The notes under the pieces: model-generated | The model's input: the letters and a program-made list of their open reading frames with translations, nothing else | What the model was told of the DNA's origin: nothing | Databases searched by the model: none | Shown here: piece after piece, positions 26,899 through 44,900 of the stretch | How positions within the stretch are numbered: position 1 is the first letter of the stretch | Layout of the letters: every line of letters begins with the position of its first letter | Position numbers and translations under genes: made by a program | Origin: Psychromonas sp. L1A2 | GTDB lineage: Bacteria; Pseudomonadota; Gammaproteobacteria; Enterobacterales; Psychromonadaceae | DNA length: 64,000 bases | Reading direction: 5' to 3' | NCBI RefSeq assembly: GCF_009828855.1 | Contig: NZ_WUAG01000001.1 | Coordinates: 558,001-622,000, forward strand

Positions 26899-26937
26899 AA
26901 AAAGCCCATTCACTTTTAAGTTGAATGGGCTTTTTTG
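26899..26937 (+). terminator. Terminator after Pmp3-like gene
   Basis: Hairpin AAAAGCCCATTCA / TGAATGGGCTTTTTT, 30 bp after the stop codon. Confidence 0.9.
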
Positions 26938-27023
26938 TATTGATAAGCTACTTAACTCTTAACTCTTAACTATTAATTATTGTCATCATTAATCATCACA
27001 ATTATTATTAATTAATACACAAA

Positions 27024-28247
27024 TCACATTTCATTATTTTCTAAGATAAACATTTGATTATAGACTTTCTGGACATCTTTACCTTGGAATTGGGTTGCAA
27101 TTTGTAGCTCTTCAACATAGTTATTGTCGGGGTTAAATTGGTTATATTTCACTAACGCTGGAATACAATCTTCAAATTTTAACGCTTGGTTTGGATAGTC
27201 CCACTCTGCACCATGTATCACAGGCTTTAGGAAATCAAATCCCGCCTTAATGCCTTTACCTTTACTTGGTTGGTATTGCCAAATAGGATCTCCTAGTTTA
27301 TCGGCCACAATCGCAACACGGCCGAGTGCATCTAAGTTGAAACAGCTATAAAAGAAGGCACGTGTTCGAGCTAATTCTTCAGGTTGAGAACCATCTTCTG
27401 CAAACTGGCTGTTCATGCTGTCTTTGGTTGCGTTAATACTTTCTTGAGCTATCGTTTTATCACCTAAATAATAAGCAATAGAGCTCACTTGGAATCGGTA
27501 CCAGGTGCCATGGTTATTTTCTTGTGTTGCGCCATCAATACCTATTTTACTTTTTGTTAACCATTCTAAATGAGCTGCTAACCATTCATCCATTTGTTTG
27601 TCATCATCACTGCTCCACGCCTTTGACTTTTCAAGCATTTTTACAGCATCTAGTACCATTGTTTGTACGAATCGACCATCCAAAATACCTGCTCGACGAC
27701 CTTTATTATTACCTGGGACACTTTGTGCATAATTTAAATTTGGGTTCATTTTTGTTTCTGGATCTAAAAACCAAGTTTTTATCATGCTTGCTGATTTTTC
27801 AGCATATTTATCATCACCTGATAGGTAATAAGCAAGAGCAAGTCCATAAACAGCATTACCCATAACACTTATTCTAGGGCGATCGACATCATCAGTTTGT
27901 GTTTTAGGATTGGTTTGACCGTCTTTACGGATCCAAGGAAGACCATCTTCTTTAGTTGGATCAGGCCACCAGTAACGGCTCAAGCTTAAATAATCATGCT
28001 TATCTTTACTGGGTGGTATGAACGTTTTATCCATTACCGTTGGATTTTTCATATTTAAATCAGTGTCTGCTTGTTTTATTACCTGTTGATATTTTTTAGT
28101 TGTTTCTTCAGAGGCTTTTTTTTGGCTGAGTTCTGTTTTTAACTGGTCTAATGAGGCTGGATCTATTTGAACAAATTCACTGGCGATGACTTGGCTTGAT
28201 AAAGCAATTGCAACACTAGCAACTAATATTTTAATGTTAACCTTCAT
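27024..28247 (-). CDS. Secreted alginate-lyase-fold polysaccharide lyase
   Basis: A 407-residue protein with an N-terminal signal peptide (ILVASVAIALSSQVIAS). The rest is an all-helical (alpha/alpha toroid) alginate-lyase domain of the PF05426 type. Characteristic segments are DYLSLSRYWWPDP, NAVYGLALAYYLSGDDKYA, GRFVQTMVLDA, ENNHGTWYRFQVSSIAYYL and DGSQPEELARTRAF. The ENNHGTWY plus ELARTRAF combination recalls PL5/PL38-like lyases acting on alginate or glucuronan. Predicted to act in the periplasm on brown-algal polysaccharide. Single gene, no polysaccharide-utilisation neighbours. Confidence 0.85.
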   Translation of the reverse strand: MKVNIKILVASVAIALSSQVIASEFVQIDPASLDQLKTELSQKKASEETTKKYQQVIKQADTDLNMKNPTVMDKTFIPPSKDKHDYLSLSRYWWPDPTKEDGLPWIRKDGQTNPKTQTDDVDRPRISVMGNAVYGLALAYYLSGDDKYAEKSASMIKTWFLDPETKMNPNLNYAQSVPGNNKGRRAGILDGRFVQTMVLDAVKMLEKSKAWSSDDDKQMDEWLAAHLEWLTKSKIGIDGATQENNHGTWYRFQVSSIAYYLGDKTIAQESINATKDSMNSQFAEDGSQPEELARTRAFFYSCFNLDALGRVAIVADKLGDPIWQYQPSKGKGIKAGFDFLKPVIHGAEWDYPNQALKFEDCIPALVKYNQFNPDNNYVEELQIATQFQGKDVQKVYNQMFILENNEM

Positions 28248-28470
28248 GGTGACTGCCTTCTTGTTTGAGTTAGTTATGGCTCAATAAGATATAGTCATAC
28301 AAATAAATTAAAGTATGTTTAGATCACAAAAAATCTACCTAATGAATGTTTTACCTCACAAAATTGCAACCTGACAAAATGACGACTTATAAATTTTTAT
28401 TTTATAAAATAGCATCTTATAAAAATAAAAATGAAATAATATTATTTTTATAAGATTAATTTTCATCAAA

Positions 28471-28510
28471 TAGAGAAATAGAGAAATAGAGAAATAGAGA
28501 AATAGAGAAA
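28471..28510 (+). repeat. 8-bp tandem repeat
   Basis: Five exact units of TAGAGAAA followed by one diverged unit (TAAAGAAG). Not inside a gene. Confidence 0.93.
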
Positions 28511-28570
28511 TAAAGAAGTAGATAACTAGAAGATTATAAAATAGGAAGCTTGAGAATAGTGACAGAAGTA

Positions 28571-28597
28571 AAACCCAGCTTATTATCACTGGGTTAA
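28571..28597 (-). terminator. Terminator of second DoxX-like gene
   Basis: On the minus strand, AACCCAGTGATAATAAGCTGGGTTTT forms a short stem followed by T residues just after the stop codon at 28604. Confidence 0.75.
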
Positions 28598-28603
28598 ATA
28601 ACA

Positions 28604-29017
28604 CTATTTTATTGTAAATTTAACGTCAGCATCACGTAATAAATAAAGTGCAAAACATGCTGCCCACATTGGCCAAGCGGCAAAAAATAATAGGCTGTTA
28701 AATGGGTCTGCATATTTTGCAAATGCAGATAATGTTGAACCACCGTGCATTAAAAAGATAAGACCGTAGGTAAAACGTTTTTTAATACCGGCTACAAAAG
28801 CAAGTACTAATAATAGCTGTAATGCACCTAGTAAGTAGGTGATCATGTGGCTAGAGCCACCAATACCATAGAATTTATCAAGTACGCCAATTGAATGAGC
28901 AGGGTTAACAAACTTATCCATGGTCCAAATAAACATAACAATAAAAACACCTAGGCGAAGTGCGAGTAAACTATTTTGTAGACGATCTGTTAAAGCTGGT
29001 GAAATAGACTGAGACAT
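28604..29017 (-). CDS. DoxX-like integral membrane protein, copy 2
   Basis: A 137-residue protein with four hydrophobic helices: ALRLGVFIVMFIWTMDKFVN, LLGALQLLLVLAFVAGI, YGLIFLMHGGSTLSAF and LLFFAAWPMWAACFALYLL. It is very similar to the upstream gene at 29117-29527, so the pair is a tandem duplication. Helix layout and the WTMDKFVNP motif recall the DoxX/MauE group of small redox-linked membrane proteins, but family assignment is tentative and function is unknown. AAAAGGAAAATTCA precedes the ATG. Confidence 0.8.
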   Translation of the reverse strand: MSQSISPALTDRLQNSLLALRLGVFIVMFIWTMDKFVNPAHSIGVLDKFYGIGGSSHMITYLLGALQLLLVLAFVAGIKKRFTYGLIFLMHGGSTLSAFAKYADPFNSLLFFAAWPMWAACFALYLLRDADVKFTIK

Positions 29018-29080
29018 TGAATTTTCCTTTTAGGTTTTTTTATAGAGGGATTAAAAAAATTAGTTTTATTAATACAAATA

Positions 29081-29106
29081 AAAAAACCCAGCTAAAAAGC
29101 TGGGTA
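29081..29106 (-). terminator. Terminator of first DoxX-like gene
   Basis: Minus-strand hairpin ACCCAGCTTTTTAGCTGGGTTTTTTTA, immediately after the stop at 29117. It implies that the two paralogues are separately terminated. Confidence 0.88.
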
Positions 29107-29116
29107 TCATGATTAA

Positions 29117-29527
29117 CTATTTGATAGTGAATTTCACATCTTCATCACGTAATAGATAAAGTGCAAAACATGCTGCTAACATTGGCCAAGCAGCAAAGAA
29201 TAGTAGGTTGTTAAAACCATCCATATATTGATTGTAAGCAGAGAATGTTGATGCGGCATGCATTAGTAATATAATGCCGTAAGTGATGCGTTTTTTAATG
29301 CCTGCCAAAAATGAAAGTACTAGGATTAGCTGTAAAGCGCCGAGAATGTAGACAATCGTTGTACTACTTCCTATACCATAAAATATTTCAAACACTTTAG
29401 CGGTATGACCTGGATTAACAAACTTATCCATAGTCCACATAAACATAACGATAAAAACACCTAAGCGCAGTGCAACAAGAGCACACTGAAGACGATTCTT
29501 TGTATCTGTTGATAAAGCTTGTGACAT
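29117..29527 (-). CDS. DoxX-like integral membrane protein, copy 1
   Basis: A 136-residue four-helix protein, the paralogue of 28604-29017. They share ALRLGVFIVMF, WTMDKFVNP, GALQL, AGIKKR and the C-terminal ALYLLRDxDVKFTIK. The ending KFTIK is identical in both. Separate ribosome sites (AAGGAAAAACC here) and terminators flank each copy. Function is unknown. Confidence 0.8.
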   Translation of the reverse strand: MSQALSTDTKNRLQCALVALRLGVFIVMFMWTMDKFVNPGHTAKVFEIFYGIGSSTTIVYILGALQLILVLSFLAGIKKRITYGIILLMHAASTFSAYNQYMDGFNNLLFFAAWPMLAACFALYLLRDEDVKFTIK

Positions 29528-29798
29528 GGTTTTTCCTTAAATAAAATATAATGGTTTTAGTACAGAGATAACAAAGACCGTCATTAAATTCATTTTATTT
29601 CACATTTTTAAAAAATATTTCAATTATTTTTTAATAAATCACGGGCTACCGATAAACTAAGCTACTTAAAACTGCTAAGAGAGCATTTGAAGTTGATAAT
29701 AGTTGAGATGATGTTGAATGTGCTTAAACCATTGCAATTAGATTAATAATGGCTAATAACGTCAAATAATGAAAAGACATTAATAAAACAAGGCTAAA

Positions 29799-30239
29799 AT
29801 GAGAAAAATACTAATAATCTGTATCGTGCTAGCAGCTGGTTGGTATGGCAATGAACTGTATAAAAATAATCAATTACCTTTTATACAAACATCTTCATCA
29901 AGTGTCTCGATTGACGACAAGATTAAATGCATTACTAAAGAAGGGCGTATTTTATATGGGAAGGTACCTGACGACGTCGTATGTGAAAGGCGAGAATCAG
30001 TTAAAGCCTCAATCGTTATACTTTCAAGTGATAAGAAAACCAGTAATAAAACATCTAACCAAAAAAGTGACAATATTAATTCAGGGTTTCAATATTCAGA
30101 ATTTCAATGTGACGGGCGAATGTATTGCAGTCAAATGACATCAAGATCTGAAGCTGAATTCTTTATTAATAACTGTCCAAACACCAAAATGGATGGGGAT
30201 TATGATGGCATTCCTTGTGAAGGGGATTCACGTTTCTGA
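29799..30239 (+). CDS. Excalibur calcium-binding domain protein, exported
   Basis: A 146-residue protein with an N-terminal signal or anchor (MRKILIICIVLAAGWYGNEL). A middle region with a Ser/Asn/Lys-rich linker follows. The C-terminal Excalibur domain has FQCDGRMYCSQMTSRSEAEF and the calcium-loop motif DGDYDGIPCEGDSRF, with the family's paired cysteines. Such domains sit on surface nucleases and adhesins; here there is no catalytic partner domain. Function is unknown. Confidence 0.85.
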   Translation: MRKILIICIVLAAGWYGNELYKNNQLPFIQTSSSSVSIDDKIKCITKEGRILYGKVPDDVVCERRESVKASIVILSSDKKTSNKTSNQKSDNINSGFQYSEFQCDGRMYCSQMTSRSEAEFFINNCPNTKMDGDYDGIPCEGDSRF

Positions 30240-30325
30240 TATTTTTAAATGGATGTTTGAAATTACTTTTCAATTGAGCTGTTTGAATTTATAGACGTTA
30301 AACTTGAAAGCTTGAAACGAAGGGA

Positions 30326-30343
30326 ACCCAGTAAATACTGGGC
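30326..30343. terminator. Hairpin between Excalibur gene and rhlE (convergent)
   Basis: ACCCAGTA / TACTGGGCT palindrome lying between two convergent genes. T runs are short on both sides, so terminator activity is uncertain. Confidence 0.45.
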
Positions 30344-30383
30344 TCGCTTTATCTATTAAATGACTAAACTAATGCTTATTGAT

Positions 30384-31595
30384 TTAACGTTTGTTAGATT
30401 GGCGACGACGGCCTTTTTGTGCCGTTTTAGGTGCATGCGCTGCATTTGAATCAGGTACAACTAACTTTGGCTCAAAACCTTCAACAACATCTCGTTTAAT
30501 GAAATAACCTAAATGGCGTTCGATAGCACATAGGTTTCTGAAGTCATCACGTGAAACTAATGAAATCGCTTCACCTGCAGCACCAGCTCGGCCAGTACGA
30601 CCAATACGGTGAACGTAATCTTCAGCTTCATCAGGTAAATCATAGTTAACAACACGTTCTAGATCGTCAATATCAATACCACGTGCCGCGATACCTGTTG
30701 CTACTAAGAACTGAATTTTACCTTCTTTAAAGTCTGCCATTAATTGTTCACGTACTGCTTGGCTTCGTCCACTATGGAAAGATTCCGCTGCTATTTCACG
30801 CTTCTCTAATTGGCTTACTAATTTAGCGGCGCCACGTTTAGTTTCAATGAAAATTAACGCTTGTTGCCATTTATTCTCATGAATTAAATGACTTAATAAT
30901 GCCGATTTAAATTCTTTATCTACCGTGATCAAGTGTTGCTCAATCTTTGGTACGGTAACATTTTCAGGTGTAATTGAAATCTCAACGGCATCCGTTACCG
31001 CTGTTCTTGCTAAAAAGCGTACTTGCTTAGAAAGTGTTGCTGAGAATAATAAATTTTGACGCTCTAACGGCAACTTCTCAACGATTTTATTGATGTCGCT
31101 GATGAAGCCCATGTCCAACATACGGTCAGCTTCATCGATCACTAGGATGCTAGTTTCATCGAAGTGAATAGAGCGGCTAGTGTACATATCTAATAAACGA
31201 CCTGGTGTTGCGACTAAAATATCAACCCCTTCAATAAGACGTTGTTTTTGTGGTTCAGCATCGATACCACCATACATTGCCATTGAGGTAATACTCAGGT
31301 GCTTAGCATAATGTTGAATATTCTCTTCAACTTGAATGGCTAGCTCTCGTGTTGGCGTTAAAATCATGGCATGAACACGTTTAGGGCGAACTAAAGGCGC
31401 ATCAATTAATTTTTGTAAGATAGGTAATACAAAACTCGCGGTTTTACCTGTCCCTGTTTGCGCAGCGGCAATCAGGTTTTTGCCTTTTAATACAACAGGA
31501 ATCGCTTTTTCTTGGATCGGCGTTGGTGCTTCGTAACCTTGTTCTGTTACAGCTTGTACAATTGGATCACTTAAACCAAGGGATGAAAATGTCAT
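30384..31595 (-). CDS. rhlE: DEAD-box RNA helicase, RhlE-like
   Basis: ATP-dependent RNA helicase of 403 residues. It has the Q motif (GYEAPTPIQEKAIP), motif I AQTGTGKT, Ia PTRELAIQ, II DEAD, III SAT, and VI HRIGRTGRAG. The C-terminal tail is short and basic (TAQKGRRRQSNKR), as in RhlE-type helicases involved in ribosome assembly and cold-shock RNA remodelling. Other DEAD-box subfamilies cannot be fully excluded. Monocistronic. Confidence 0.9.
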   Translation of the reverse strand: MTFSSLGLSDPIVQAVTEQGYEAPTPIQEKAIPVVLKGKNLIAAAQTGTGKTASFVLPILQKLIDAPLVRPKRVHAMILTPTRELAIQVEENIQHYAKHLSITSMAMYGGIDAEPQKQRLIEGVDILVATPGRLLDMYTSRSIHFDETSILVIDEADRMLDMGFISDINKIVEKLPLERQNLLFSATLSKQVRFLARTAVTDAVEISITPENVTVPKIEQHLITVDKEFKSALLSHLIHENKWQQALIFIETKRGAAKLVSQLEKREIAAESFHSGRSQAVREQLMADFKEGKIQFLVATGIAARGIDIDDLERVVNYDLPDEAEDYVHRIGRTGRAGAAGEAISLVSRDDFRNLCAIERHLGYFIKRDVVEGFEPKLVVPDSNAAHAPKTAQKGRRRQSNKR

Positions 31596-31953
31596 TTTTT
31601 GTCTCTACTTATCAAGTTAAAATGGTATAAAACGGCCACATTTTTACATAAGTAAAGTATCAAACGTATTTCACTGCTTTTGAAAATCAACGGTGAGATG
31701 TATGACAGAAATGGAAAAGTGACAGGTTTTATGGGTTTGTTATTAATTACATTACTGGTTTAATAGTTAGTTTAATAGTTAGTTTAATAGTTAGTTAAAT
31801 AGTTAGTTAAATCATTCGTTAATTATACGTTGCTTAATATTCTATTTAATTTTTTATTTTTAAAAATACTGTTTATGTATTTTAAACTTTCCTCTATCAG
31901 CGTCTATATTTTTATACACTGATAGAGGCGTTACACATTTGACTCTGTAGAAG
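31596..31953. other. 358-bp spacer with 12-bp tandem repeat
   Basis: It contains the rhlE promoter, a tandem repeat (31758-31817) and, close to the ybiT stop, an inverted repeat CCTCTATCAG / CTGATAGAGG (31891-31928) without a good T run. Confidence 0.6.
31758..31817 (+). repeat. 12-bp tandem repeat
   Basis: Three exact units of GTTTAATAGTTA, one GTTAAATAGTTA and one decayed unit. Non-coding. Confidence 0.88.
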
Positions 31954-33558
31954 TTACGCTAATTTTTTAGCTTCTTCCTGACTTGATAGGTACTCGTTAT
32001 AAGTACCTTGAAAATCAATTACTTTTTTATCTTTAATATCAACAATACGCGTTGCTAATGAAGAGACAAACTCACGGTCATGACTCACAAAGATTAACGT
32101 ACCTTTGAATTCTTTTAATGCATTGTTTAATGCATCAATCGCTTCTAAGTCCATGTGGTTGGTTGGTTCATCCATGACTAATACGTTAATATCTTGCATC
32201 ATTAACTTACCAAATAATAGACGGTTTTTCTCACCACCCGAACAGTTACGTGCTTTTTTGTTTGCATCGTCATCGGTAAATAATAAACGACCTAACATAC
32301 CACGAACGATTAAATCACTGTGCTTGCTAGTACGCCATTGACCCATCCAGTCCATCAAGGTTAAATCGTTGTCAAAATCATCGGTGCTGTCTTGCGGGCA
32401 GTAACCGATAGATGCATTTTCAGACCATTTAACAACACCTTCATTGTGAGCAAGGTCATTCACTAAACAACGCATGAAGGTCGTTTTACCAACACCATTT
32501 TCACCAATAATAGCCAGTTTAGCGCCTGCTTCTAAAATGATGTCACCACCACTAAATAATGGGCCGTCTTCAAAACCGTGGCCTAGGCCTTCTAACACCA
32601 ATGCTTGACGGTGCATCTTCTTGCCTTCATCAAAAGCTAAAGAAGGGTGCATACGACTGGTCGATTTAACTTCATCCAGTTTTATTTTATCCATTTTCTT
32701 AGCGCGTGAACTTGCTTGTTTCGCTTTAGAGGCATTAGCACCAAAACGGTTTACAAAGTCTTGTAGTTCATCGATTTCAGCACTTTTCTTTGCATTTTCT
32801 GCTAATAGTTGTTCACGAATGAGTGAAGATGCTTCAAGGAAATATTCGTAGTTACCAGGGTAAATACGTAATTCACCGTAATCAATGTCTGCCATGTGCG
32901 TACAAACAGAGTTTAAGAAGTGACGGTCATGCGAGATAATAACCATAGTACAACGACGTTTGTTTAGCTCATCAGATAACCAGTTGATAGTATTAATATC
33001 CAAGTTATTGGTTGGCTCATCGAGTAATAATAAGTCAGGGTTTGCGAATAACGCTTGTGCTAATAGCACTCGTAACTTCCAACCCGGTGCAACTTGTTTC
33101 ATCAAACCAAAGTGAAACTCTTCTTCGATGCCTGCATCTAATAAGATGTCACCAGCACGACTTTCAGCAGTGTAACCATCCATTTCAGCAAACTCACTTT
33201 CAAGCTCACCAACTTTCATGCCGTCTTCTTCAGTCATTTCTGGTAAGCCGTAAATACGGTCACGCTCTTTTTTGATTTCCCATAATGCTTTGTCGCCCAT
33301 GATAACCGCGTCAATAACAGTGAACTCTTCAAAAGCAAACTGGTCTTGGCTTAATGTACCGACTTTAACACCTGGGTCTAATGATACGTTACCTGAGCTT
33401 GGCTCTTGTGCACCAGTCAAAATCTTCATGAACGTTGATTTTCCACAACCATTAGCACCAATTAACCCGTAGCGGTTAAAGTTACCAAATTTAGCAGAGA
33501 TATTTTCAAATAAAGGCTCTGCGCCAAATTGCATCGTAATGTTTGCGGTAGATATCAA
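31954..33558 (-). CDS. ybiT: ABC-F family ATPase YbiT
   Basis: A soluble, ribosome-associated ABC-F protein of 534 residues with two nucleotide-binding domains. The first has Walker [10 protein letters not shown] and Walker [13 protein letters not shown]. The second has GENGVGKTT, signature CSGGEKNRL and [12 protein letters not shown]. The charged linker [20 protein letters not shown] lies between them. Sequence and length match YbiT of E. coli. It has no membrane domain, which separates it from transporters. ABC-F proteins act on translation. Monocistronic. Confidence 0.93.
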
Positions 33559-34089
33559 AGTAAAGATTCCATCAGTTTAGAGCAAGCGGTCATTTGCCAA
33601 TTGGCTGTCAACAACGTTGCAGAAATAATAAGGTCGCGAAGTATACAGATTAAGCAATTAAAATGTCGAATTATGTGAGTAAAAGCAGATTATTTTTTGT
33701 TTTATTTTTGTACAGGGAGGTTAGGTTGCTCTTTTGTGTTTTAGGTTCGTCTGCGCTTACCTTTTCATTTTTATATTGTTTAGCAGTGTTTTCGCCCTGT
33801 TGGTGACTTTACTTGTCCTTGGTCACAAGAAACTTCTTGCCCACAACTGTTAAAAAGACTGACACCGAATCACTTTCTGCTGTTGCTGGAAGTTATCAAT
33901 TGCTTGGGAAAGCTTAACGGTGACCTTATTGTAGCCACGCTGAGTAAGTTTTTATATTTTTTATTTAATCGTTTGATTTAATGTTTTATTACACTAAAGT
34001 AACACCTAATTTATCAAATTAAACTATTCCGCCTTTCCACCGTAAATACGGAATAAATTGGGTTAGTTGCGCTGTTAGGAATATATGAG
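33559..34089. other. 531-bp spacer, left boundary of accessory island
   Basis: No gene. The last 80 bp (from TAACACCTAATTTATC near 34000 to GCGCTGTTAGGA at 34068-34079) contain an inverted repeat ATTCCG / CGGAAT and end in a GTTAGGA core. This resembles an integron attC site directly before the cassette-like gene at 34090. Confidence 0.45.
34000..34079 (+). other. Candidate attC-like recombination site 1
   Basis: It begins TAACACCTAATTTATC, has a central hairpin ATTCCG...CGGAAT and ends GGGTTAGTTGCGCTGTTAGGA, whose last bases fit the R' core GTTRRRY except at the final base. The pairing of outer arms is imperfect, so this is tentative. Confidence 0.35.
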
Positions 34090-34917
34090 ATGACATCAAT
34101 AGCAAGTTGGTTCCATAATGAAGGGCATGATTCAATATGGGTCGTTGGTGACTCAAAAATTACAAATACTAGTTCTATGTTAATAGATATTGGTGCAAAA
34201 ATTTTTAGTATTCCACTAATTTGTAAGGGGGTTGGTAAGTCAGGTTTTCTTGATTCAACTTTTTTAGAAACTAAAATTGGTTTGGCATACGCAGGTAGTT
34301 CTTTAGTTGGATTAAATGTTCAAGCTGCTTTAACGACAGTATTTGCGAATTTGGGTGGGACTGGGATAGCTCCAAGTATGGATTCTATTGTTGAGTTCTC
34401 AAAAAACATTATTAAAAGCTATATAAGTACATTAGCCGTAAGTGCAGATAGAGGGGCATTGTGCGAGTTCTCGATGTTCGGCTATTGTCATGTAGATAAT
34501 GAATTAAAAATGTATCACTTAAAACCAGATTTGAGCAGTGGTATGTTTGATATAGAAATAATTACATACCTAGAAAGCGAAGTTGATAATGACTTCGTAT
34601 TATTACTAGGAGACAAAAAGCATGAAATTAACGAAGAAATAAACAATAAGCGCACAAGTTACTCTTCGGATCATATTTTATGGCAAAGAGCGCCACAGAC
34701 TGTACTAAAAGAAATTGTGCAAACAGATAAATATGAAACAGTAGGCGGTCATATACAAATGGGTATTTGTGACTCTTCAGGCTTTCATCCTTATTCAACT
34801 CTAAATTATGTGAAAGGTGAAGAACCTAAAGCATACCTTAGCTATTTAGGGTTTCACACGTCAGGGGACTCCGGTCAGATAGGGAATTGTTTCGTAAACA
34901 TCAATGGAATGGCCTGA
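34090..34917 (+). CDS. Predicted proteasome/HslV-like N-terminal-threonine (Ntn) hydrolase
   Basis: A 275-residue protein, not recognised as a named family. The start MTSIASWF puts Thr at position 2, as in HslV. Asp21 in WVVGDSKIT and Lys37 in DIGAKIFSI are separated by 16 residues, exactly as Asp17 and Lys33 of proteasome beta/HslV. AKIFSIP and GLAYAGSSLVGLNVQA then match the following strand and the AGG/AGS turn of HslV. I therefore infer an Ntn hydrolase that would use Thr2 after Met removal. No HslU-like ATPase is nearby. It lies alone between attC-like sequences. Codon use and lack of a strong ribosome site suggest transfer. Confidence 0.65.
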   Translation: MTSIASWFHNEGHDSIWVVGDSKITNTSSMLIDIGAKIFSIPLICKGVGKSGFLDSTFLETKIGLAYAGSSLVGLNVQAALTTVFANLGGTGIAPSMDSIVEFSKNIIKSYISTLAVSADRGALCEFSMFGYCHVDNELKMYHLKPDLSSGMFDIEIITYLESEVDNDFVLLLGDKKHEINEEINNKRTSYSSDHILWQRAPQTVLKEIVQTDKYETVGGHIQMGICDSSGFHPYSTLNYVKGEEPKAYLSYLGFHTSGDSGQIGNCFVNINGMA

Positions 34918-34921
34918 AAAC

Positions 34922-35016
34922 TCCTAACAAGGGCGTTAAACGTAACAAAAACAGTGGTTTAGGTTTCTCTATACGTTATAACCCACTATTTTAGTCCGCT
35001 TAATGCGGAGTTAACT
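34922..35016 (+). other. Candidate attC-like recombination site 2
   Basis: It follows the Ntn-hydrolase gene by 5 bp. It starts CCTAACAAGGGCGTTAAACG (R''-like core with AA after it) and ends AGTCCGCTTAATGCGGAGTTA, very like the L'-R' half of known attC sites (typically GTCxGCTTAA...GCGTTA). Length is about 95 bp. It separates two single-gene units. Confidence 0.5.
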
Positions 35017-35041
35017 ATCTAACCTAATCTAAGGATTTATT

Positions 35042-35755
35042 GTGTTACTTGAACCAATCTCGATAGCAACAGATCTAATTGAAAGCTGGCTAAAAGGTAG
35101 TAAGTCTTTAAGGGTAGTTTTGGGGCTTGCCATAGCATCGCTAGGCATTGCAGTTATTACTCTTAGTTTAGGCGGTTTAATAGACTTAGAAAAACAATTC
35201 AAAGATGTAGTTGCTGGAACTTTCTTTGCAATTTCAATAATTCTTACCTTCGGAGTTATTGGTTATCAAAACGCTTTAGAAAGAACAAGAACGGCTGAAA
35301 AGATTGAAGCTGTAGAAGAGCGGTTTAGAGATAATCCCAAAGAAACACAAGCTGCTTGGGAGTTGGCACAAACCAAACTCGAAACATATATAAACCGAAA
35401 TTTGAGTCAAGTACGTTCAATTTTTTGGTTAACTGTTTTCGTTATGTTATTTGGGTTCGCATTAATTAGTTACGGTGTGTTTAAAGCTTTTGAAACCCCT
35501 GATTTGTTAGCACCATCAATTTTAACAGCATGTAGCGGATTGATTGTGAATTTTATCGGAGCAACATTTCTCGTAGTGTTTAAATCTACAATGTCCCAAG
35601 CCCAAGAGTATATGGGAATAATCGAAAGAATTAATGCTGTTGGTATGTCAGTACAAATTCTAGAAACATTAGATGACTCTAAACATGAATTAAAAGACAA
35701 AACCACTTCTGACATTGCGCAAAAGCTATTAGATTTATATGGTGGGAAACGATAG
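35042..35755 (+). CDS. Four-helix membrane protein, TRADD-N-associated-membrane-domain-like
   Basis: A 237-residue inner-membrane protein starting with GTG (CTAAGGATTTATT before it). Helices lie at about 21-46 (VVLGLAIASLGIAVITLSLG) and 57-77 (VVAGTFFAISIILTFGVIGY). A charged cytosolic helix follows (about 80-118), then helices at about 120-142 (SIFWLTVFVMLFGFALISYG) and 158-180 (TACSGLIVNFIGATFLVVF), and a helical tail. The last helix pair and tail (SQAQEYMGIIERINAV) resemble the membrane domain found with TRADD-N domains in predicted bacterial conflict systems. This is a tentative, pattern-based reading. It may work with the Ntn-hydrolase gene upstream. Confidence 0.6.
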   Translation: MLLEPISIATDLIESWLKGSKSLRVVLGLAIASLGIAVITLSLGGLIDLEKQFKDVVAGTFFAISIILTFGVIGYQNALERTRTAEKIEAVEERFRDNPKETQAAWELAQTKLETYINRNLSQVRSIFWLTVFVMLFGFALISYGVFKAFETPDLLAPSILTACSGLIVNFIGATFLVVFKSTMSQAQEYMGIIERINAVGMSVQILETLDDSKHELKDKTTSDIAQKLLDLYGGKR

Positions 35756-35838
35756 TTAACAAACAAGATGTATGGACTCCCTAACCTTATCTACTAAGAT
35801 TTAAGTGATCTGATTTGTAGCAATTAAAGGAGTCTTAT
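35756..35838 (+). other. attC-like start interrupted by IS110/IS1111 left end
   Basis: Right after the membrane-protein stop comes TTAACAAACAAG, an attC R''-like start. The sequence then changes to ATGTATGGACTCCCTAACC, leading into the transposase gene, with GGACTCC at 35774 and GGAGTC at 35830 as candidate subterminal repeats. IS1111-attC elements are known to insert into attC sites at this position. Confidence 0.45.
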
Positions 35839-36108
35839 ATGAATAAGTATGGTGTTCTCGCGATCGATTTAGCTAAAACAGTTTTTCAAGTTTGTAAAAC
35901 AGATAGTTTTGGAAATGTTATTTACAATAAAGCTGTTAATCGTAAAAGATTAAAAGAAATTTTAACTCTAGAAAAAAAATCTCTTGTTGCAATGGAGTCA
36001 TGTGGTGGTACACATTACTGGGCTCGTTTTGCGAAAGCTCAGGGGCATGAAGTAAAGGCAATACCAGCAAGGCTTGTGTTAAAATTCTGGACAGCCATAA
36101 ACTTTTGA
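35839..36108 (+). pseudogene. IS110/IS1111-family transposase, 5' fragment
   Basis: The first 84 codons or so of a DEDD transposase. YGVLAIDLAKTVFQVC carries the first catalytic Asp, and SLVAMESCGGTHYWAR the Glu. It continues to KAIPARLV, where the normal ORF should read on into (K)PFVxxNKNDxxDA. The reading is cut near 36090 by the left end of the HUH-transposase element and runs to a chance stop. A good ribosome site (AAAGGAGTCTTAT) remains. It differs in sequence from the 3' fragment at 46950-47757, so the two are not halves of one copy. Confidence 0.85.
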
Positions 36109-36213
36109 CTGATGTAACTGCTCAAACTATCTTTTATAGATGCTTATTTTGCATCTAGGAGTTAGTTTTTATGACTCAATCTCGTCGCTCTCAAGTTTCC
36201 CTTTCAGATAGCC
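36094..36213 (+). repeat. Left-end fragment of HUH-transposase element (copy a)
   Basis: Starts TGGACAGCCATAAACTTTTG and continues through the ribosome site and about 14 codons of the transposase (MTQSRRSQVSLSDS), then jumps into U32-peptidase-tail sequence. A similar fragment joined to the genuine U32 gene tail lies at 51353-51480. Confidence 0.85.
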
Positions 36214-36300
36214 CTCAACAGAAGCAAGTATGAAGTTAATCGACTTATTATCGATTAACTTCATTAGATTGTTTAGCACGCTGATATTATTAAGCTTAGC

Positions 36301-36437
36301 TTACAAACCTTGCTGATATTGCGCATTAGTCGAGACTGTAACCATGCCAGTCACCGTTGCTGCTGCTTGCTGATCTCCCGCTAAGAAATCTTCAAAGTGC
36401 TTAATTAATTGCACTTTATCTTGCTTCTCTTTTGAAC
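36301..36437 (-). pseudogene. Duplicated 3' tail of U32 peptidase gene
   Basis: About 45 codons, from the stop TTA at 36301, closely matching the C-terminus of the U32 gene at 51568-53811 (GDQQAAATVTGMVTVSTN region). The 13-bp palindrome downstream (36231-36263) is copied too. A handful of substitutions show it is an old duplicate. Truncated at 36437, where the intact HUH-transposase element begins. Confidence 0.88.
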
Positions 36438-36452
36438 CTGAAACAAAAGTTC

Positions 36453-37742
36453 TGGACAGCCATAAACTTTTGACTAATGTAACTTCTCAAACTATCTTTT
36501 ATAGATGCTTATTTTGCATCTAGGAGGTAGTTTTATGACTCAATCTCGCAGCTCTCAAGTTTCCCTTTCAGATACCCCTTACTATCACTGTATTTCACGC
36601 TGTGTTCGTCGTGCTTATTTATGCGGAGAAGATAAATACACCGAAAAATCATTTGAACATAGGCGGCAGTGGGTTGTTGAGCGAATGCATTGCCTTGCCT
36701 CACTCTTTAATATTGATATTTGTGCTTACGCTATTATGTCGAATCACTATCATCTTGTATTGCATGTTGATGAAATACTTAATGAAAATTTAAGTCATGA
36801 AGATGTGTGTGAACGTTGGTGTCAGCTGTATTCAAAGCCCGTTTTAATTGAACGTTGGCAAAATGCGTTAACGGTGTCAGAAGCAGAAAATAAAGCCGCA
36901 CTTGAGGTTATTAATGGGTGGAGAGGGCGGTTAGCTGATATTTCATGGTTTATGCGTTGTTTAAATGAATTTGTTGCGCGCAAAGCGAATAAAGAAGATG
37001 CATGCTCAGGTCGATTTTGGGAAGGAAGGTTTAAGTCTCAAGCACTCCTTGATGAAGATGCTTTGTTAGCTTGTATGGCTTATGTCGATTTAAACCCTGT
37101 CCGCGCCAAAATGAGTGATAGTGTCGAAACGTCAGAATATACATCCGCTTATGAGCGCCTATTACCTTGCAAAAAAGTTGGTGTTGCTCAGCAACAAGAA
37201 GAACTATTAAGCTACCATGTTAAGAAAAAGCCACTATTTGGTTTTGTTGGTGATGAACATGAGGATAACCCACAAGGTATGCCATTTTCATTATTGGATT
37301 ATATTGAATTAGTTGATTGGAGTGGACGAATTATCAGAGAAGATAAACGGGGGGCAATTTCAAGCCAGCATCCCCGATTATTAACCAAACTCGGTTTAGA
37401 TGGTGACACCTGGATATCACTCGCGAGCAGCTTTGGTAAGGAATACCAAGGTGCCGTGGGCTCTTTGGAAGCATTAGCTTTATTTGCTAGCCATACAGGT
37501 AAACGTTGGATAGCCAGTAAAAACCAATTGCGACGAACACATTAACCAATCGCCTCGGTAATCTCTCAATTATTTGTTATTGGCAACGGCCAATGTTTTC
37601 CATGCCTGAAAAATCAATATTACTCCCACCCCTTATTTAATTTTAAGTTTTACCGCTAAAGTGCCAACTATTTTAGTTAGTATTTTGATTTGCTAGCAAT
37701 GAAAATAGCATTATGAGGCGAGTGAAAGTTTATGGATGTCCA
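36453..37742 (+). mobile_element. HUH (Y1) transposase element with terminal inverted repeats
   Basis: About 1.29 kb. The left end TGGACAGCCATAAACTTT and the complement of the right end, TGGACATCCATAAACTTT, match at 17 of 18 bases. It encloses one transposase gene (36535-37545) plus about 200 bp of 3' non-coding DNA. Right-half and left-end fragments of relatives occur at 36094, 47763 and 51353, and a short stretch at 49267. It sits between duplicated tails of U32 (left) and ahpF (right). Confidence 0.82.
36535..37545 (+). CDS. Y1-transposase (IS200/REP-associated type)
   Basis: A 336-residue HUH single-strand endonuclease. The HUH motif is His71-Tyr-His73 in IMSNHYHLVLHVDE. The family's segments GRFWEGRFKSQALLDE and CMAYVDLNPVRAKM follow, with the catalytic Tyr probably in the latter. 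A C-terminal extension of about 120 residues lies beyond the Y1 domain. The ATG at 36535 is chosen because TAGGAGGTAGTTTT precedes it. The gene appears intact. The inverted ends of the element are unusual for classical IS200 elements, which have subterminal hairpins. Confidence 0.9.
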   Translation: MTQSRSSQVSLSDTPYYHCISRCVRRAYLCGEDKYTEKSFEHRRQWVVERMHCLASLFNIDICAYAIMSNHYHLVLHVDEILNENLSHEDVCERWCQLYSKPVLIERWQNALTVSEAENKAALEVINGWRGRLADISWFMRCLNEFVARKANKEDACSGRFWEGRFKSQALLDEDALLACMAYVDLNPVRAKMSDSVETSEYTSAYERLLPCKKVGVAQQQEELLSYHVKKKPLFGFVGDEHEDNPQGMPFSLLDYIELVDWSGRIIREDKRGAISSQHPRLLTKLGLDGDTWISLASSFGKEYQGAVGSLEALALFASHTGKRWIASKNQLRRTH

Positions 37743-37772
37743 TTTTTTCTATGTCCAGCTATTTTTGGTTAC

Positions 37773-37898
37773 TTAACAACGGTACCTTACAAGCAAATCA
37801 TTATTGCAATGGGCGAAGGTTCAAAAGCAAGTCTAAGTGCCTTTGAACACTTGATCAGAACACCTGCTCCTGTCGCTAAAATTGCAGAAGTAGCTTAG
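37773..37898 (+). pseudogene. Duplicated 3' tail of ahpF
   Basis: Forty-one codons plus stop, nearly identical to the end of ahpF ([20 protein letters not shown], then [18 protein letters not shown]; a Glu replaces Asp). A degraded copy of the ahpF terminator follows at 37939-37968. It starts just beyond the right end of the HUH element. No start codon or upstream part. Confidence 0.92.
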
Positions 37899-37938
37899 TT
37901 TATAGTTACTGAGTTAATAAGTAACTAATATTAACAAC

Positions 37939-37968
37939 AGGCCAACTACTTCGTACTTGGCCTTTTTT
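37939..37968 (+). terminator. Degenerate copy of ahpF terminator
   Basis: AGGCCAACTACTTCGTACTTGGCCTTTTTT: the stem is kept only at its base compared with the perfect hairpin at 26589. Confidence 0.65.
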
Positions 37969-38105
37969 ATTTTAATTTTTTAGTGACTCACGTCACTTTT
38001 TTACGGCTCTTTGTCTTTTTTTTATATGTTTTATTTATATTTCTTGCACATTTCTTGCATATTTGTAATATTCTAGAAAATCTAATAATAATAAGGATAT
38101 TGTTG

Positions 38106-38474
38106 ATGAAATTTAAAGTATTAGCGTTAATTACAATGACTTTCAGTGCATTTAGCTCATTGAGTCACTCAGCAGAAACAGTTGGCACTATAGATGAAAT
38201 TATATTGTGTGAATTGGGAGGAGATAAGTGGGTAAAAACATTACAATTTAAAGTGAATAATCAATGGTTTGGTATCTATGCTGATTATTTTAAAACAGGG
38301 AATTCTTATGATAATAATATTGCCACTTCATTGATCTATATGGCTTATTCGCAAGAGAGTGTTATTAAAATCAAAGCTTCAGGCAACTGGGATAATGCAT
38401 TTACTGTTTGTGGTGTAGCTAAAGGTTCAATTATATATCGTATCGATGGTGATTATATCCGTTTATCTCGATAA
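38106..38474 (+). CDS. Small secreted protein preceding the giant YD-repeat protein
   Basis: A 122-residue protein with a signal peptide (ALITMTFSAFSSLSHSAE). The mature part has two cysteines (ILCELGG and FTVCGVAKG), probably a disulfide, and a compact beta-rich sequence WVKTLQFKVNNQWFGIYAD. Family not recognised. The ATG at 38106 follows AAGGATATTGTTG; a longer frame starts at 37983 but lacks a site. It lies 38 bp before the next small gene and may belong to the toxin operon. Confidence 0.75.
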   Translation: MKFKVLALITMTFSAFSSLSHSAETVGTIDEIILCELGGDKWVKTLQFKVNNQWFGIYADYFKTGNSYDNNIATSLIYMAYSQESVIKIKASGNWDNAFTVCGVAKGSIIYRIDGDYIRLSR

Positions 38475-38512
38475 TATTTAAAGCTTTAATTAATTAATAT
38501 TTTAGGCTCTAT

Positions 38513-38902
38513 ATGCAAATAAATAAACATATACGTTATATATTTATTGTCGCTATTATTATTTCTTTCGGAGTAGTTTGTTTTCTATATTCAAATACAG
38601 TTGTAAGGGAAGAAATAGTGCCACTTAATGAAAGTAAAGAGCTTAAAATAGAAAAATTAAAAGAACTAAGCGATGAAGCGAATTATCCGTCGCCAGTTAT
38701 AAAGTTACAACAATTAATGGCACAGTCTTTTTCTATCCTAGAACCAATTGAAGAGCCGAAAGATAATATTTCACATGAAACTTTTATTACTTCTCTAGAA
38801 CGTCAAGAATTTACCAATACAAATGAAGATGAAAAGCTACAGCAACTTTTATTTGAAATAAAAAAATTAGAAAAAAATATTTCGAATACTGCTTTTAAAT
38901 AG
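38513..38902 (+). CDS. Small membrane-anchored protein preceding the YD-repeat protein
   Basis: A 129-residue protein with one N-terminal membrane helix (IFIVAIIISFGVVCFLYSN). The rest is an acidic, largely helical domain with LKELSDEANYPSPVIKLQQL and a C-terminal coiled-coil-like LQQLLFEIKKLEKNI. Family not recognised. It ends 19 bp before the giant toxin ORF on the same strand, so an accessory role in its export or folding is possible but unproven. Confidence 0.7.
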   Translation: MQINKHIRYIFIVAIIISFGVVCFLYSNTVVREEIVPLNESKELKIEKLKELSDEANYPSPVIKLQQLMAQSFSILEPIEEPKDNISHETFITSLERQEFTNTNEDEKLQQLLFEIKKLEKNISNTAFK

Positions 38903-38921
38903 CACTTCAATATCATAAACA

Positions 38922-41900
38922 ATGGATTGTATTATGTTTAATTTTAATAAACAGATGTTACCTTTTAGCTCTAATTATTTGGGGAGCTTTATTGGGAAAA
39001 TTTTATTATTAAGAGTTGTCTCTCTCTGTGCTGTAGTATTTTTTATCTCAAGTGCAAATGCAGTTAATTATACTTCTTCGGGAAGTGCTCAATTTGAACT
39101 GTCAGGAAATTTGATGGTGGAAGGAGGAAAGGCAATATATGAATTACCTATAGAAATAATTCCTGGAAGAGCAGGGCACACACCTCATATTAGTTTGGTT
39201 TATAATAGTGATATGAGCAACGGTTACTTAGGCATGGGATGGCAATTACAAGCTAGTTCTGTAATCACTCATTGTGGACAAAATTTAGAAAAAGATGGCG
39301 TGTGGGGTGGAGTTAACTTCGATGCAGAAGATAGATACTGTTTAGACGGGCAGCGCTTAATTGCAATTACAGGTTACAATGGTGCCAACTCAACAGAATA
39401 TCGAGTAGAAAAGAATGGCTATGCAAAAATTGTTTCTTATGGTAATTCGGGTAGTGGTCCTAGCTATTTTAAAATATGGCCTAAAACAGGGGGGGTTTTA
39501 GAATATGGCGTTACATCAGATGCTAAAGTAGAGCTCCCTACAACGAAAAATATTTATAAATGGGCACTTAATAAAAGTACCGATATTAGTGGCGAAAATC
39601 ATATTTTTTATCATTATGACGAGAGCTTTAATAATATAACTGTAGGTAAAAGCCATCATTTAGATCTCATCACCTATGAAGGTGGGGAGATTAAGTTTAA
39701 CTATGAAACACGCGCAGACAAGGTTACTCAATACTTGGCAGGGCAGAAATTAACTCGTAATAAACGAATCAAAAGTATTGTTAGTAGAGATCAAAATAAT
39801 GAATTAGTTAAAAGTTATAATATTAAATATATCTATTCAGATGCTACCAATCGAAGTTTAATAAGTGCGATTGACTTGTGTGTTTCTGATGGTTGTAGTT
39901 CAGAGATTAGTTTCGATTGGAAAACAAAAAAAGCAGGCTCTTTCATCAATGAAGAAAAATCGTTTTTTGAACCTCATTTTATTGATAGGAATGGTGATGG
40001 TTTTTTCTCAATATACGGAATTATTAATCGTGAATCACGAAATAATGATGTAATTATGAACTTAATTGCCCCTAATAGATCTAGAACGCGTAAAACTGCT
40101 ACTCGCAATCATGCATTATCAGGAGTAATGAATAACCCTTCTTACAAAACCTTTAGACACGGTTGTCAAGCGAAATATTATCGTAAATATAATGATGGAA
40201 TTCTGACTGCTGTTTGTGATTTACATGCCTATGCTGACTTTAATGGTGATGGTAAAGAAACAGCAACATCAGCTTCAAATACTGTTGTTGACTTTAATGG
40301 TGATGGGCGGGCTGATATATTAACTATTAAAAATGGTCAGATTAATCTTAAATTAGCGGGTACTAACCGCCTTATAATATCTCCGAATATCAATAAGGAC
40401 TTGGATTTTATTGATATTAATAACGATGGCTATCTAGATGTTATAACTAATAACCCTCTTGCAAAAGTTATTTATTTATTTAATGGTAAACAATTCGTAA
40501 AACATCAAAGTTTCGCATTCAAAAAAATGAACGCTTCTGAAAAAATTAATTCATATTTTGCAGATATGAATAATGATGGTTACCCAGAACTTTATTATAA
40601 CGGCCAATTCTATCTGAATAAATTCGGTACTATAAATGGAAGAGAAGCTTGGAGTGGTTTAAATTATTCTGCAGGTAAAACAGGTGCAATGCAATTTTCA
40701 GACATCAACAGTGATGGTTGGTTAGATATTATTCGTACGTTTAACGGTAAAACAGTATTACGTAAATCTATCGCGAGTGTGCAAGACAAAATAATTACTA
40801 TTAGTGAATATAGTAAGCATTACAACATTAATTACAAACCGTTAGTCGATCAGACTGTGCATAAACAAGTTAAGTATTATAAATTTCCTTTTGTGAATAG
40901 CACTCCTCAAAAATATGTTGTTTCCAATGTTGTTAAAACACCGAAAGGCTATAGTAACATTATTTATGATTATCAATACACGGGGGCAAAAAGTCATTTA
41001 AAAGGTGGTGGTTTTTTAGGTTTTTCTAGCATTGTTGAAACTGAGAAAGCTGAGATGACAACGGTGACAACACGTGAATTCGAACAATTAGATCTAGCAA
41101 AAATAGGGGAACTGTCTAAAGTAAGTATTAGACGAAATAATAAGTTAATTTCAAGACAAAACATTGGCTACCGAGTTCTTAGAAAAAAAGGTGTTAATGC
41201 AAATTATTATCAAGTTTACCCTAATAAAGTTGGCACAGAATTTTTTGCTTTAAATGGAGCTATTGAAAAAAAAATAACAGAAGAAATATTAATGGATATT
41301 TTTGGTAATAAAACTGAAAATACTATGACAATAGTAGGTGGTAAATCTGATGCTCCTTATATTAAAAAAATAATTAATACTTTCGAGTCAAAAGGAGAAA
41401 ATACATATCATCAAATTTTAAAATTATCCCCAACATCTGTAATTAATTTTAAAACCATTCCACAATCTGAAGCAGGCATTGAAAAGTTTTGTTCAGATAG
41501 TGGCAATATTTATTTAAAAGCTAAAGATAAAGTCAATATTATAGCTGGCATCATCAATATACCGATAGTTGTTAAGCGTTACCCTCAATACTACCAATTT
41601 AAGAAAATATCTTCTAATAACACTTTTCCCGAAAATACCATCATTTCAGGCGATTTACAAAAATCTAATCTAAATGATGCCCTACATGATAATGTTTATC
41701 CATGCGGTAATTTTAATTTACAAAATGATTCATCAAAACAATTAGAGTCAACTCAAAACTCCTTCATCACTCAAGAGCTAATCACAGAGTCTTCGAATGA
41801 TTTTTGGAAATTAGGTGCACTAAAAAGTAGTATTGTGTCAATTAATAGTGGTGAAGGAAATATTACCTTTAAGAACACTATGGAATACCTAAAAAATGGG

Positions 41901-44900
41901 CTTTTATCCTCTGTTTATAACCATGGTGGTAGTTATGGGGGAAGTAACGGGAAATATGCTAAAAGCAGTTATGGCTATGATGAATATGGTAATGTTATTT
42001 CAGAAACCTTTAGTGGTACTGGTTTAACACCTCGGACAATATCTACCCTTTATGCTGGATCTGGTGTTAATCCTCGAGCAAGTATTAACGCGTTAGGGCA
42101 TAAAACGTTATTAGAATACGAACAACGTAATGGTCAACTCGTCAAACAAGTCAGTCCTAGTGGTAAAAAAGTAAGTACTTGGAAGTATGATAAATTTGAT
42201 AGGGTTATTGAAGAGAGTAAACAGGGCTTTGGTAATACACTTACATACACTTATAAATTAGGTGCCAATTGCCCTAATGTACATAAACAAACGGTTAGCT
42301 GTATTATTGCAAAATCTGCTAGCCAAGGTGATATGGTTACTCAGTTTGATTATGAAGGTAAAGAAATAAGAAATGCCCACCAAGGATTTAATGGTCGTTG
42401 GATTTATCAAGATACCCAATGGGATAGAAATGGTCGCAAGTTAAGTACAACAAGACCTAGCTTCAAAAAAAATAGTATCGAAGCGACTGTTTATTTTGAA
42501 TATGATGAACGTAATAGGGAAATAAAAAAAACGGAACCTGCGGCTAATGGCGGAAGTGCAACCTATACAACAAATTACGATAGGTTAAAAACCGTAATAA
42601 CTGATGCACGTGGTTACAAACATACAACGATTAAAAACGTTTTAGGCTATATTTTAACAAAGATTGAACCACACGGCGCATCTCAAACCTATTCTTATTA
42701 TCCAGATGGAAAACTTAAAACAAGTACTGATTCAAGTAACAACAAAACACAAATCAAATACGATAATTTAGGACATCGAAGTCAATTGATTGATCCTGAT
42801 ATGGGGAATTGGACTTATAAATATAATGCTGCAGGGGAGTTGTTATATAAAAAGGATGCTAACGGTAAAGTAACTAATATTGTCTATGATAAACTTGGAC
42901 GTAAAACTGCGCAAAATGAAGACAAGCAAACATCTCATTGGAGTTATGATAAACCGATTCTCGGTACATTAAGTTCGCATAGTGGTCATGGTAATTTAAC
43001 TAAATATACCTATGGGAAATTTGAACTTGTTAATAAAGTCAGCATGACTAGTTCTAGTGAAACCCTTTCAACTGAATACCAATATGATAACTATGGTCGC
43101 CTGAGAAGTGAACTTCGTCCAAATGGTGATAGTGACGATGACCAACTTAATTTGCAATATACATATAACTCAATGGGGTATATGACACGGGTACGTAGTC
43201 CCAAAACAGCGGCTGATAACACATTTGCGAGTGCAAAATATCGCAATAGTATTAAGCAGTTAATGGATGATGCGTTAATTGTTGCAAAAGAGTATGTTGG
43301 TAAAGCAACCTATTATAAAAATGAAGAAAATTTTTTAAAGAATAAAGCGAAAGAATACAACGTTGATAAAATAGAGGTACATAGGTTAGATGAAACAGGT
43401 CAACAGCTCTTGGCTAACAATGAACAATATCAAAAATGGTGTTCGGATGATGGTGTTTGTTATTTAAGGCCATCAGTTTGGTTATCGCTTCATGGGCCTA
43501 TCTCTGTTCCTGTGAAAATGCTGGTTGGTGATGAAGTATATCGGCTTGAAACCCAATATAATAGCAGTACACCAGGTAAACGTTTATATGATGCAGAAAT
43601 CGATGCCGTTTCTTTAGACATTTTTAATAATGCTAATTTGACGAAAGCTGATGATACACTGTTTATTGATAGTGATAACAACGGACAAAAAGAACTAATA
43701 ACTAACAATCAGTTATTTGCAGCAAAGGCAGATAAAACAACTCGAACATCGTTATTATCACTTGCGACAGAAGTAAGTAATGCGACTGCTATTGCTAATG
43801 AACGTTATAAGTATTATGCCGATTTAGCTGAGCAGATCACTTCGTTATTGGTTGAAATAAGCAAGGTTAGTGGCTTATATTGCGAACAAGCTGATCGTCT
43901 TGTTGGGGATGAATTGAATTCTTCACAACAAGAAGGGTGCACAAATAAGAAAGAAAATAGTCAATGGCAGCATTTGGATAATCTACTTAACGAATCTAAA
44001 AATGCTGAAAAAAGCAATGCCGCTTATATCACTTATTGGCAACGCCAAGATACCGATGCTTATGACCATACATTATCCGAAACATTAGGGAACGGGTTAG
44101 TAAATACCTACCAACATAACCAAAAAACAGGGCGTCCTGACTATATTGCAACACATAAAGGTAGCCAAGTTTTTGATCATCGGATTAAAGAAACAACAAA
44201 TAAAGGCAGTAACATTCGCTTGTTACAATATCGTTATGATAACCATAATAATGTAACGTATCGTTATGACAGCGAGTTAGGGATTCAAGATACTTTTTAT
44301 TATGATGGGCTTGACAGGCTTACCAATAATAAAATTGTGTTAGATAGTCCTAATTTACACGGGATTAGCAATCCTGACTTTAATGTTAATAATAAAATTA
44401 GTTACGATAAACTAGGTAATATCACGAACAAAAGTAATGTTGGTGCTTACCAGTATCGTGGAACGGCGCCTCATGCAGTTAGTAATGCCAATAACCTAGA
44501 TTATCATTACGATAAAGTAGGTAACTTATTATCTGCAACAAAAGAAAAGCAAGGTACCGAGTCAATTGCTGATATTGAGCGTGAATTAGAATGGAGTGAT
44601 TTTAATAAACCGCTAAAAATAACTCGTAATGACAACACGGTTGAATTCAAATACGATGCCAATCACGATCGTTATTATAAAAAGAGTGTGACAGAAGGTG
44701 AAACGATTGAAACTCTCTACTTTAAAAAACTGTATGAGCGTAATACCAATCTCACTAACGGTGAAGTAGAACATAAGCATTTTATTTATGCCGATGGTAA
44801 ATTAATTGCACTTAATACACAGGTACGTGATAAGGCGAATAAACTTAAAGATAAGCAAGTTCGTTATTTACATTACGATGCACTTGGGTCAGTTGATTTA

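Follow-up and report, generated by a model that had tools for sequence, protein, structure and literature searches.

Within the 64-kb stretch of Psychromonas sp. L1A2 DNA analysed here, called the window below, lies a gene for a proteasome-like N-terminal nucleophile (Ntn) hydrolase, and at roughly even odds (a probability of about 0.5) we read its product as a solitary hydrolase with an N-terminal threonine that is moved as an integron cassette and used against phages or mobile DNA. The proteasome-like fold and catalytic set are assigned with high confidence. In 2021, Fuchs, Alva and Lupas described 22 new proteasome homologs carrying Thr1 or Ser1, Asp17, Lys33 and Gly47, for which they report no AAA+ partners and no gene context that hints at a specific role (PMC8665760). 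These homologs were left without a known function (PMC8665760), and one such family, the same as one of them or a further one, now has a gene context of integron cassettes and prophage-type loci, with some copies adjoining CBASS, AbiE, TIR and other defence genes.

A sequence-only reading of this DNA had proposed the enzyme from its MTSI start and from the 16 residues that separate Asp21 from Lys37, and both features are present in the open reading frame (ORF) and its translation, which begins MTSIASW. The protein is unrecognised by Pfam, NCBIfam, PADLOC (0 families matched) and the PDB sequences searched with phmmer. PF00227 (Proteasome) detects HslV in the host genome but leaves this protein unmatched even at E values up to 10, and a search of that genome with the protein returned a single match, itself. 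The G+C content of the gene (35.5 %) stands beside 35.9 % for the window. The earlier reading had placed the gene apart from any hslVU locus and without an ATPase partner, and the host genome is in keeping with this: hslV with an adjoining hslU sits on the second contig, and inspection by eye of the ORFs of 20000-39000 found no HslU gene.

The evidence for the catalytic set comes from the conservation of four residues. Across the 11 sequences of the family alignment (A5), which are 20-33 % identical to the window protein, T2, D21, K37, G69 and G131 are invariant. A match in another genome of the same order (G969) revealed a sister family, which is also represented in 8 plasmid records, and when six of its nine sequences are added (the interrupted or early-ending L081, L085 and L087 being left out), T2, D21, K37 and G69 are still invariant in 17 of 17 sequences at 13-33 % identity. 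The conservation of Thr2, Asp21 and Lys37, which the sequence-only reading had put forward as its own test, therefore bears it out, as does its AGS turn, whose Gly69 pairs with the AGG of HslV in the profile alignment. Its use of the spacing as a proteasome sign fares less well; the gap of 16 is real, but the Asp-to-Lys distance ranges from 14 to 21 in the 17 aligned sequences and the exact value is for that reason undiagnostic, so that the invariant residues, and not the spacing, appear as the strong evidence. Two weak matches from the phylum-level search described below agree with this pattern, one (G597/L021) retaining T, D, K and G, and the other (G392/L022, outside the counts of 17) being a 280-residue frame of the sister family with MT, DSR, PK and FAG. 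The two families differ in the distance from the Lys to the Gly, which is 29-37 residues in the 11 family sequences versus 15 in the six sister sequences, which places about 16 extra residues after the Lys strand and ahead of the AG turn. As judged from the alignment, the protein has the residues that mark proteasome-like Ntn hydrolases in the sense of Fuchs et al. 2021, namely a Thr that would come first once Met1 is removed, equivalents of Asp17 and Lys33 and an oxyanion-hole Gly.

Profile comparison points to the same relationship. HslV (26 of 30 loci) and Anbu (14 of 16 loci) sequences were taken by motif from genomes matched by PF00227, and hhalign scored the family alignment at 28.6 against HslV, compared with a maximum of 19.1 among 30 column-shuffled decoys and 12.6 for the reversed alignment, pairing T2, D21, K37 and the AGS turn with Thr1, Asp17, Lys33 and AGG. 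Against Anbu the score was 24.5, with 30 decoys at or below 20.2 and 40 others at or below 23.3, and because decoys come this close the link of the family alone to Anbu is marginal. Family and sister family match each other at 99.05 % probability, and joined together they score 42.1 against HslV (79.9 %; 40 decoys at most 19.1) and 39.1 against Anbu (59.4 %; 40 decoys at most 21.8). The known related pair of HslV and Anbu scores 16.0 in the same setting; the relation of the present proteins to the proteasome is therefore at least as visible at the same alignment depth, and the profiles indicate similarity to known proteasome-like members. A profile search against PDB also matched ten unrelated enzymes (E 0.023-0.15), which were taken as chance.

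Proteasome-like Ntn hydrolases have a core of beta strands S1-S11 with helices H1-H4. Two template-free AlphaFold models were of low confidence (predicted local distance difference test scores, pLDDT, of 40.3 and 45.3), with the N- and C-terminal strands poorly modelled. On such low-pLDDT models, all 50 of the 50 matches listed were proteasome or Anbu in three of four structure comparisons; the fourth, a Foldseek search with the second model, was weak and mixed, with 26 of the 50 matches listed being proteasome or Anbu. Residue 37 paired with chain residue 33 as the first aligned pair in 5 of 50 listed rows for another family protein and in 4 of 50 in another comparison. The fold check called for by the earlier reading thus did not refute it, and the comparison points to a proteasome fold on low-confidence models.

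Several known systems invite comparison. With HslV the window protein shares, in alignment, the N-terminal Thr after Met, the Asp, the Lys and the AG turn, and in its low-confidence models a similar order of predicted strands and helices; it differs in its additional residues between the Lys and the AG turn, and whereas the HslV of the host has 182 residues and an adjoining hslU, the window protein has 275 and is solitary and cassette-borne. With Anbu the family has in common the MT start and the (S/A)D(S/T)R motif, and the profile score beats the decoys once the sister family is joined; the gene context is another one, and the C-terminal half is unmatched by structure. The 22 homologs of 2021 (for example GPH, DPH and RPC) are described as following the same Thr/Ser-Asp-Lys-Gly recipe without an AAA+ partner, some being phage-borne and several rare in Proteobacteria, while the word integron is absent from the main text of that paper (PMC8665760). 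Likened to them by description alone, our family may be one of the 22 or a further one. A literature search combining Ntn hydrolase with integron gene cassette found no publication, one on proteasome-like or Ntn hydrolases in phage defence and HslV in defense islands gave none on the family among the matches listed (title and start of abstract), and for six family accession numbers no mention was found.

The gene has the structure expected of an integron cassette (Table 1). GTTAGGA begins 16 nt 5' of the ATG, TCCTAAC stands 5 nt 3' of the stop codon, and the two, at 34074 and 34922, are exact reverse complements with one copy each on the + strand of the 64 kb. Complementarity of a cassette's start to its own attC is a signature of integron cassettes, and the attC-like flanks of the sequence-only reading are upheld by it. 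A second cassette follows in tandem, with R' GTTAACT at 35010 and R'' AGTTAAC at 35754 again exact reverse complements, a pair that says less alone because these heptamers have 8 and 9 copies in the window. The complementary sites, the single ORF between them and the two cassettes in tandem identify the gene, by its sequence, as an integron cassette. Rfam matched nothing in 33500-36600. No integron integrase lies in the array or the window, and for want of one within it the array looks like an integrase-less cluster; the host genome has one integron integrase above the cut-off on contig 2 (434.5 bits) and another at 1098510 of contig 1, about 0.5 Mb from the array, whose N-terminal part is matched separately.

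Table 1. Features of the cassette array in the window, with the codons of the proposed catalytic residues
Feature	Position	Strand	Length	Basis
Proteasome-like Ntn hydrolase gene	34090..34917	+	275 aa	ORF list, alignment, profile comparison, structure comparison
Thr2 codon, proposed nucleophile (Thr1 after Met removal)	34093..34095	+		invariant 17/17
Asp21 codon, proteasome Asp17 equivalent	34150..34152	+		invariant 17/17
Lys37 codon, proteasome Lys33 equivalent	34198..34200	+		invariant 17/17; structure rows
Gly69 codon of AGS turn, putative oxyanion-hole glycine (proteasome Gly47)	34294..34296	+		invariant 17/17
R' site GTTAGGA, cassette 5' boundary	34074..34080	+		exact reverse complement of 34922-34928
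attC of cassette, R'' TCCTAAC to R' GTTAACT	34922..35016	+		heptamers and predicted bottom-strand fold
Second cassette gene, membrane protein, PF20712 CyanoTRADDas_TM	35042..35755	+	237 aa	Pfam E 4.2e-18
R'' of second cassette, AGTTAAC, across ORF stop codon	35754..35760	+		sequence
IS110-type transposase gene, N-terminal fragment	35839..36108	+	89 aa	ORF list; family by eye

Two relatives share elements of this arrangement. In Halomonas an integron integrase (TIGR02249, 369.7 bits) lies 0.7 kb from the copy, which stands behind an attC-like hairpin found by a script that gives 0-5 matches in each of 20 shuffles too, and the copy in Vibrio, amid defence genes, has the same leader and, by eye, a similar 3' palindrome. 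Both (positions 5978-6003 of locus L003 in Vibrio and 2689-2714 of L012 in Halomonas) have a common leader and Shine-Dalgarno sequence followed by ATC where most relatives have ATG, and may use this rare start codon.

The family is scattered and rare. Of 72,556 plasmid records searched with tblastn, 7 carry a relative; they come from Vibrio nigripulchritudo (two), Ruegeria, Azoarcus (unannotated), Acinetobacter pittii (two) and E. coli. Further scans, with alignment A2, added four genome loci, in Halomonas salicampi, two Psychrobacter and Pseudomonas fluorescens, together with two E. coli-type viral contigs, which a viral scan with alignment A6 recovered again; viral scans with single proteins and with alignment A7 gave no relative. 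Matches occur in 2 of 295 genomes at the level of the order (the host's own and G969, which has the sister-family protein), in 2 of 369 at the level of the class, own genome counted, and in 4 of 398 at the level of the phylum (the own genome, a strong match in G393 and the two weak ones above). The gene is found in 6 of 5,426 complete E. coli genomes and is absent from the 20 genomes of the same genus among those listed, for which reason it was probably acquired recently by the host. Weak matches link the window protein (E 0.003) and the Acinetobacter protein (E 0.00058) to PHROGs families of unknown function; phrog_16034 was matched in 0 of 229 genomes, in a search that gave no match anywhere. 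Two further candidates, L018 and L019, were dropped as relatives, the ORFs of L018 resembling RNA-phage proteins by eye and L019 having the same match.

Pairwise comparison of the closest copies indicates purifying selection on the family. The ratio of nonsynonymous to synonymous substitution rates (dN/dS) is 0.10 between the Vibrio and Halomonas copies (82.9 % amino acid identity), 0.16 between two Psychrobacter copies and 0.27 between two E. coli-type copies, the last from very few changes; the comparison of Ruegeria with G393 was saturated. Interrupted copies also occur, in the family (a frameshift in Vibrio strain nig3, one stop in G248) and in its sister (L081, L087 and L085, the latter with an IS5 at its start), and such losses alongside strong constraint suit a costly accessory function.

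The case for a defence role comes from gene neighbourhoods. Eleven family loci were compared (the window, Vibrio, Ruegeria, Azoarcus, Acinetobacter, E. coli type, Halomonas, Psychrobacter, P. fluorescens, G248 and G393), with the PADLOC run covering their neighbours apart from the small gene downstream in Ruegeria, the IS3 gene upstream in Acinetobacter and the Halomonas integrase, and in three of them an immediate neighbour matched a PADLOC model. In Vibrio the gene is flanked on one side by a PDC-M27C helicase (1206 bits) and on the other by a CBASS cyclase (438 bits) and 2TM effector, followed by SLATT and a UG17-type reverse transcriptase; in P. fluorescens the neighbour is PDC-S64 (134.5 bits) and in G248 AbiEi (278.2 bits) and AbiEii (459.5 bits). 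The Acinetobacter copy has a reverse transcriptase (193.6 bits) and AbiEi (98.8 bits) a few kb off, beyond the IS3. For the sister family, a Klebsiella copy adjoins LeoA/LeoBC (421 and 365 bits), one Agrobacterium plasmid has GajA-like and GajB-like genes (146 and 56 bits) one gene away, and the G969 gene lies directly behind a TIR protein of CAP12/Pycsar type (PF10137, 72.8 bits), which the end of the contig truncates; the pair (L076 44-1577) is a possible two-gene defence unit. The neighbours on the other Agrobacterium plasmid and in Rhodococcus were run and gave no PADLOC match, Lactiplantibacillus was judged from annotation alone, and two records showed none. As a control, 20 of 53 annotated genes from 10-kb stretches about 48-57 kb off on five of the same plasmids were run, and none matched PADLOC at E 1e-5; this control is small and hand-picked and the neighbours were partly chosen for testing, so the neighbour signal is treated as a lead. 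An ABC-F-like neighbour in the window (PADLOC mad3, 152 bits) was left uncounted as a generic ATPase match, a case that shows how PADLOC bit scores can mislead when taken by themselves.

In E. coli, four of the six carriers were opened (H34 and H37 being left out), giving two prophage-type loci at torT, one at the tRNA-Arg/intS prophage site and one IncI2 plasmid. At all four, a 200-residue protein, WP_021577015.1, precedes the hydrolase, with tail-fibre genes beyond; the vicinity of tail-fibre genes is a usual site of prophage accessory genes. This protein, a candidate partner of the E. coli hydrolase, is a putative membrane protein (L090 5917-6519; also L007, L089 and L091) with 15.7 bits to ZorB. 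A constant partner gene for the family as a whole was rejected, as the neighbours vary by locus except for this protein at the E. coli copies opened.

From these observations we infer the chemistry, the removal of Met1, a protein substrate and the defence role as follows. Met1 would be taken off by methionine aminopeptidase, exposing the amino group of Thr2, and Thr2 would then attack a peptide-type carbonyl; Asp21 and Lys37 would tune this nucleophile, and the AGS loop with Gly69 would supply the oxyanion hole. Since neither a propeptide nor a dedicated ATPase is evident, the enzyme would most likely target a particular partner or unfolded protein rather than work as an unfoldase-fed barrel. 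As a single-gene accessory module, it could act on a host or phage protein during infection. We think it probably a protease rather than a ligase or other amidase. A role in phage defence, suggested by the neighbourhoods only, is our best guess, held at somewhat below even confidence, and it is more tentative still to propose a scattered, rare class of single-gene immunity, in which free-standing proteasome-type Thr hydrolases are passed around among integrons, prophages, plasmids and defence islands, with the sister family beside TIR and dynamin-type genes. If so, at least one orphan proteasome homolog would gain a function, and bacterial defence a Thr-nucleophile hydrolase that is kin to the core of eukaryotic protein degradation. 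The observations of the sequence-only reading are as a whole confirmed, and its interpretation as a free-standing defence or stress effector is partly supported.

The best-surviving alternative, unlikely yet deserving some weight, keeps the fold and the Thr nucleophile and makes the protein a sequence-specific peptide ligase or transamidase, or a cutter of non-protein amides, serving metabolism, stress or surface modification. The same fold family includes connectase, which likewise forms no ring; it differs as an archaeal monomeric ligase with an insertion between strands S3 and S4 (PMC8665760). The lack of an ATPase partner is compatible with such an activity, and the longer Lys-to-Gly loop (29-37 residues against 15 in the sister family) could give the enzyme a narrow active site, but several copies neighbour defence genes and, except for the 200-residue protein at the E. 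coli copies, no conserved partner that would be an obvious substrate is seen.

Decidedly unlikely in our view is a gene for maintenance or counter-defence of the prophage, plasmid or integron itself, degrading host immune proteins or repressors for the benefit of the element. The E. coli copies in prophage-type loci, in three insertion contexts, would suit this, as would the conjugative typing of five of the seven plasmid records with a relative; the integron cassettes and the AbiE- and CBASS-adjoining copies fit defence of the cell better, and 50,697 phage records were unmatched by the window protein and by the Acinetobacter protein (four queries in all gave no match). That the protein is a catalytically inactive or purely binding relative retained for some other role, like the inactive alpha subunits of the proteasome (PMC8665760), is highly improbable, as four catalytic positions invariant at 13-33 % identity would be unexpected were catalysis dispensable.

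The remaining features of the window concern the surroundings of the cassettes. The name of the domain in the second cassette's membrane protein reflects its association with TRADD-N proteins, and this protein has no relative in the plasmid collection. Of the IS110 and HUH elements named by the earlier reading, the first is an ORF that is present but amounts to an 89-residue N-terminal piece, which we take by eye to be of IS110 type, and the second, an IS200-like gene, matches PF01797 at 18.6 bits, below the cut-off of 23 bits. The IS110 fragment seems to have truncated the attC of the second cassette. Elements of the IS110/IS1111 group with attC sites as their target are known, and such targeting would explain the fragment's position. 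Two near-identical sequences, 36081-36215 and 36446-36579, lie at a distance of 365 nt at the 5' end of the HUH gene (96 % over 89 nt, then 94 % over 49 nt), and the full gene seems to be preceded by a partial copy of itself. A 61-residue ORF at 37713-37898 duplicates the C-terminal 40 residues, 39 of them identically, of an AhpF-like protein from 24905-26500, so that direct copies of the ahpF 3' end flank the intervening stretch as if an island had inserted there or duplicated it. Further along, 38922-45971 encodes a 2349-residue protein that looks by eye like one of RHS repeat type and may be a polymorphic toxin. Elsewhere in the host genome, seven tyrosine-recombinase genes that share one score against TIGR02249 (92.4 bits, under its cut-off) stand in groups of two or three at a spacing of about 3.2-3.7 kb, at C1:2362766-2370796, C2:106029-110002 and C2:249225-253243.
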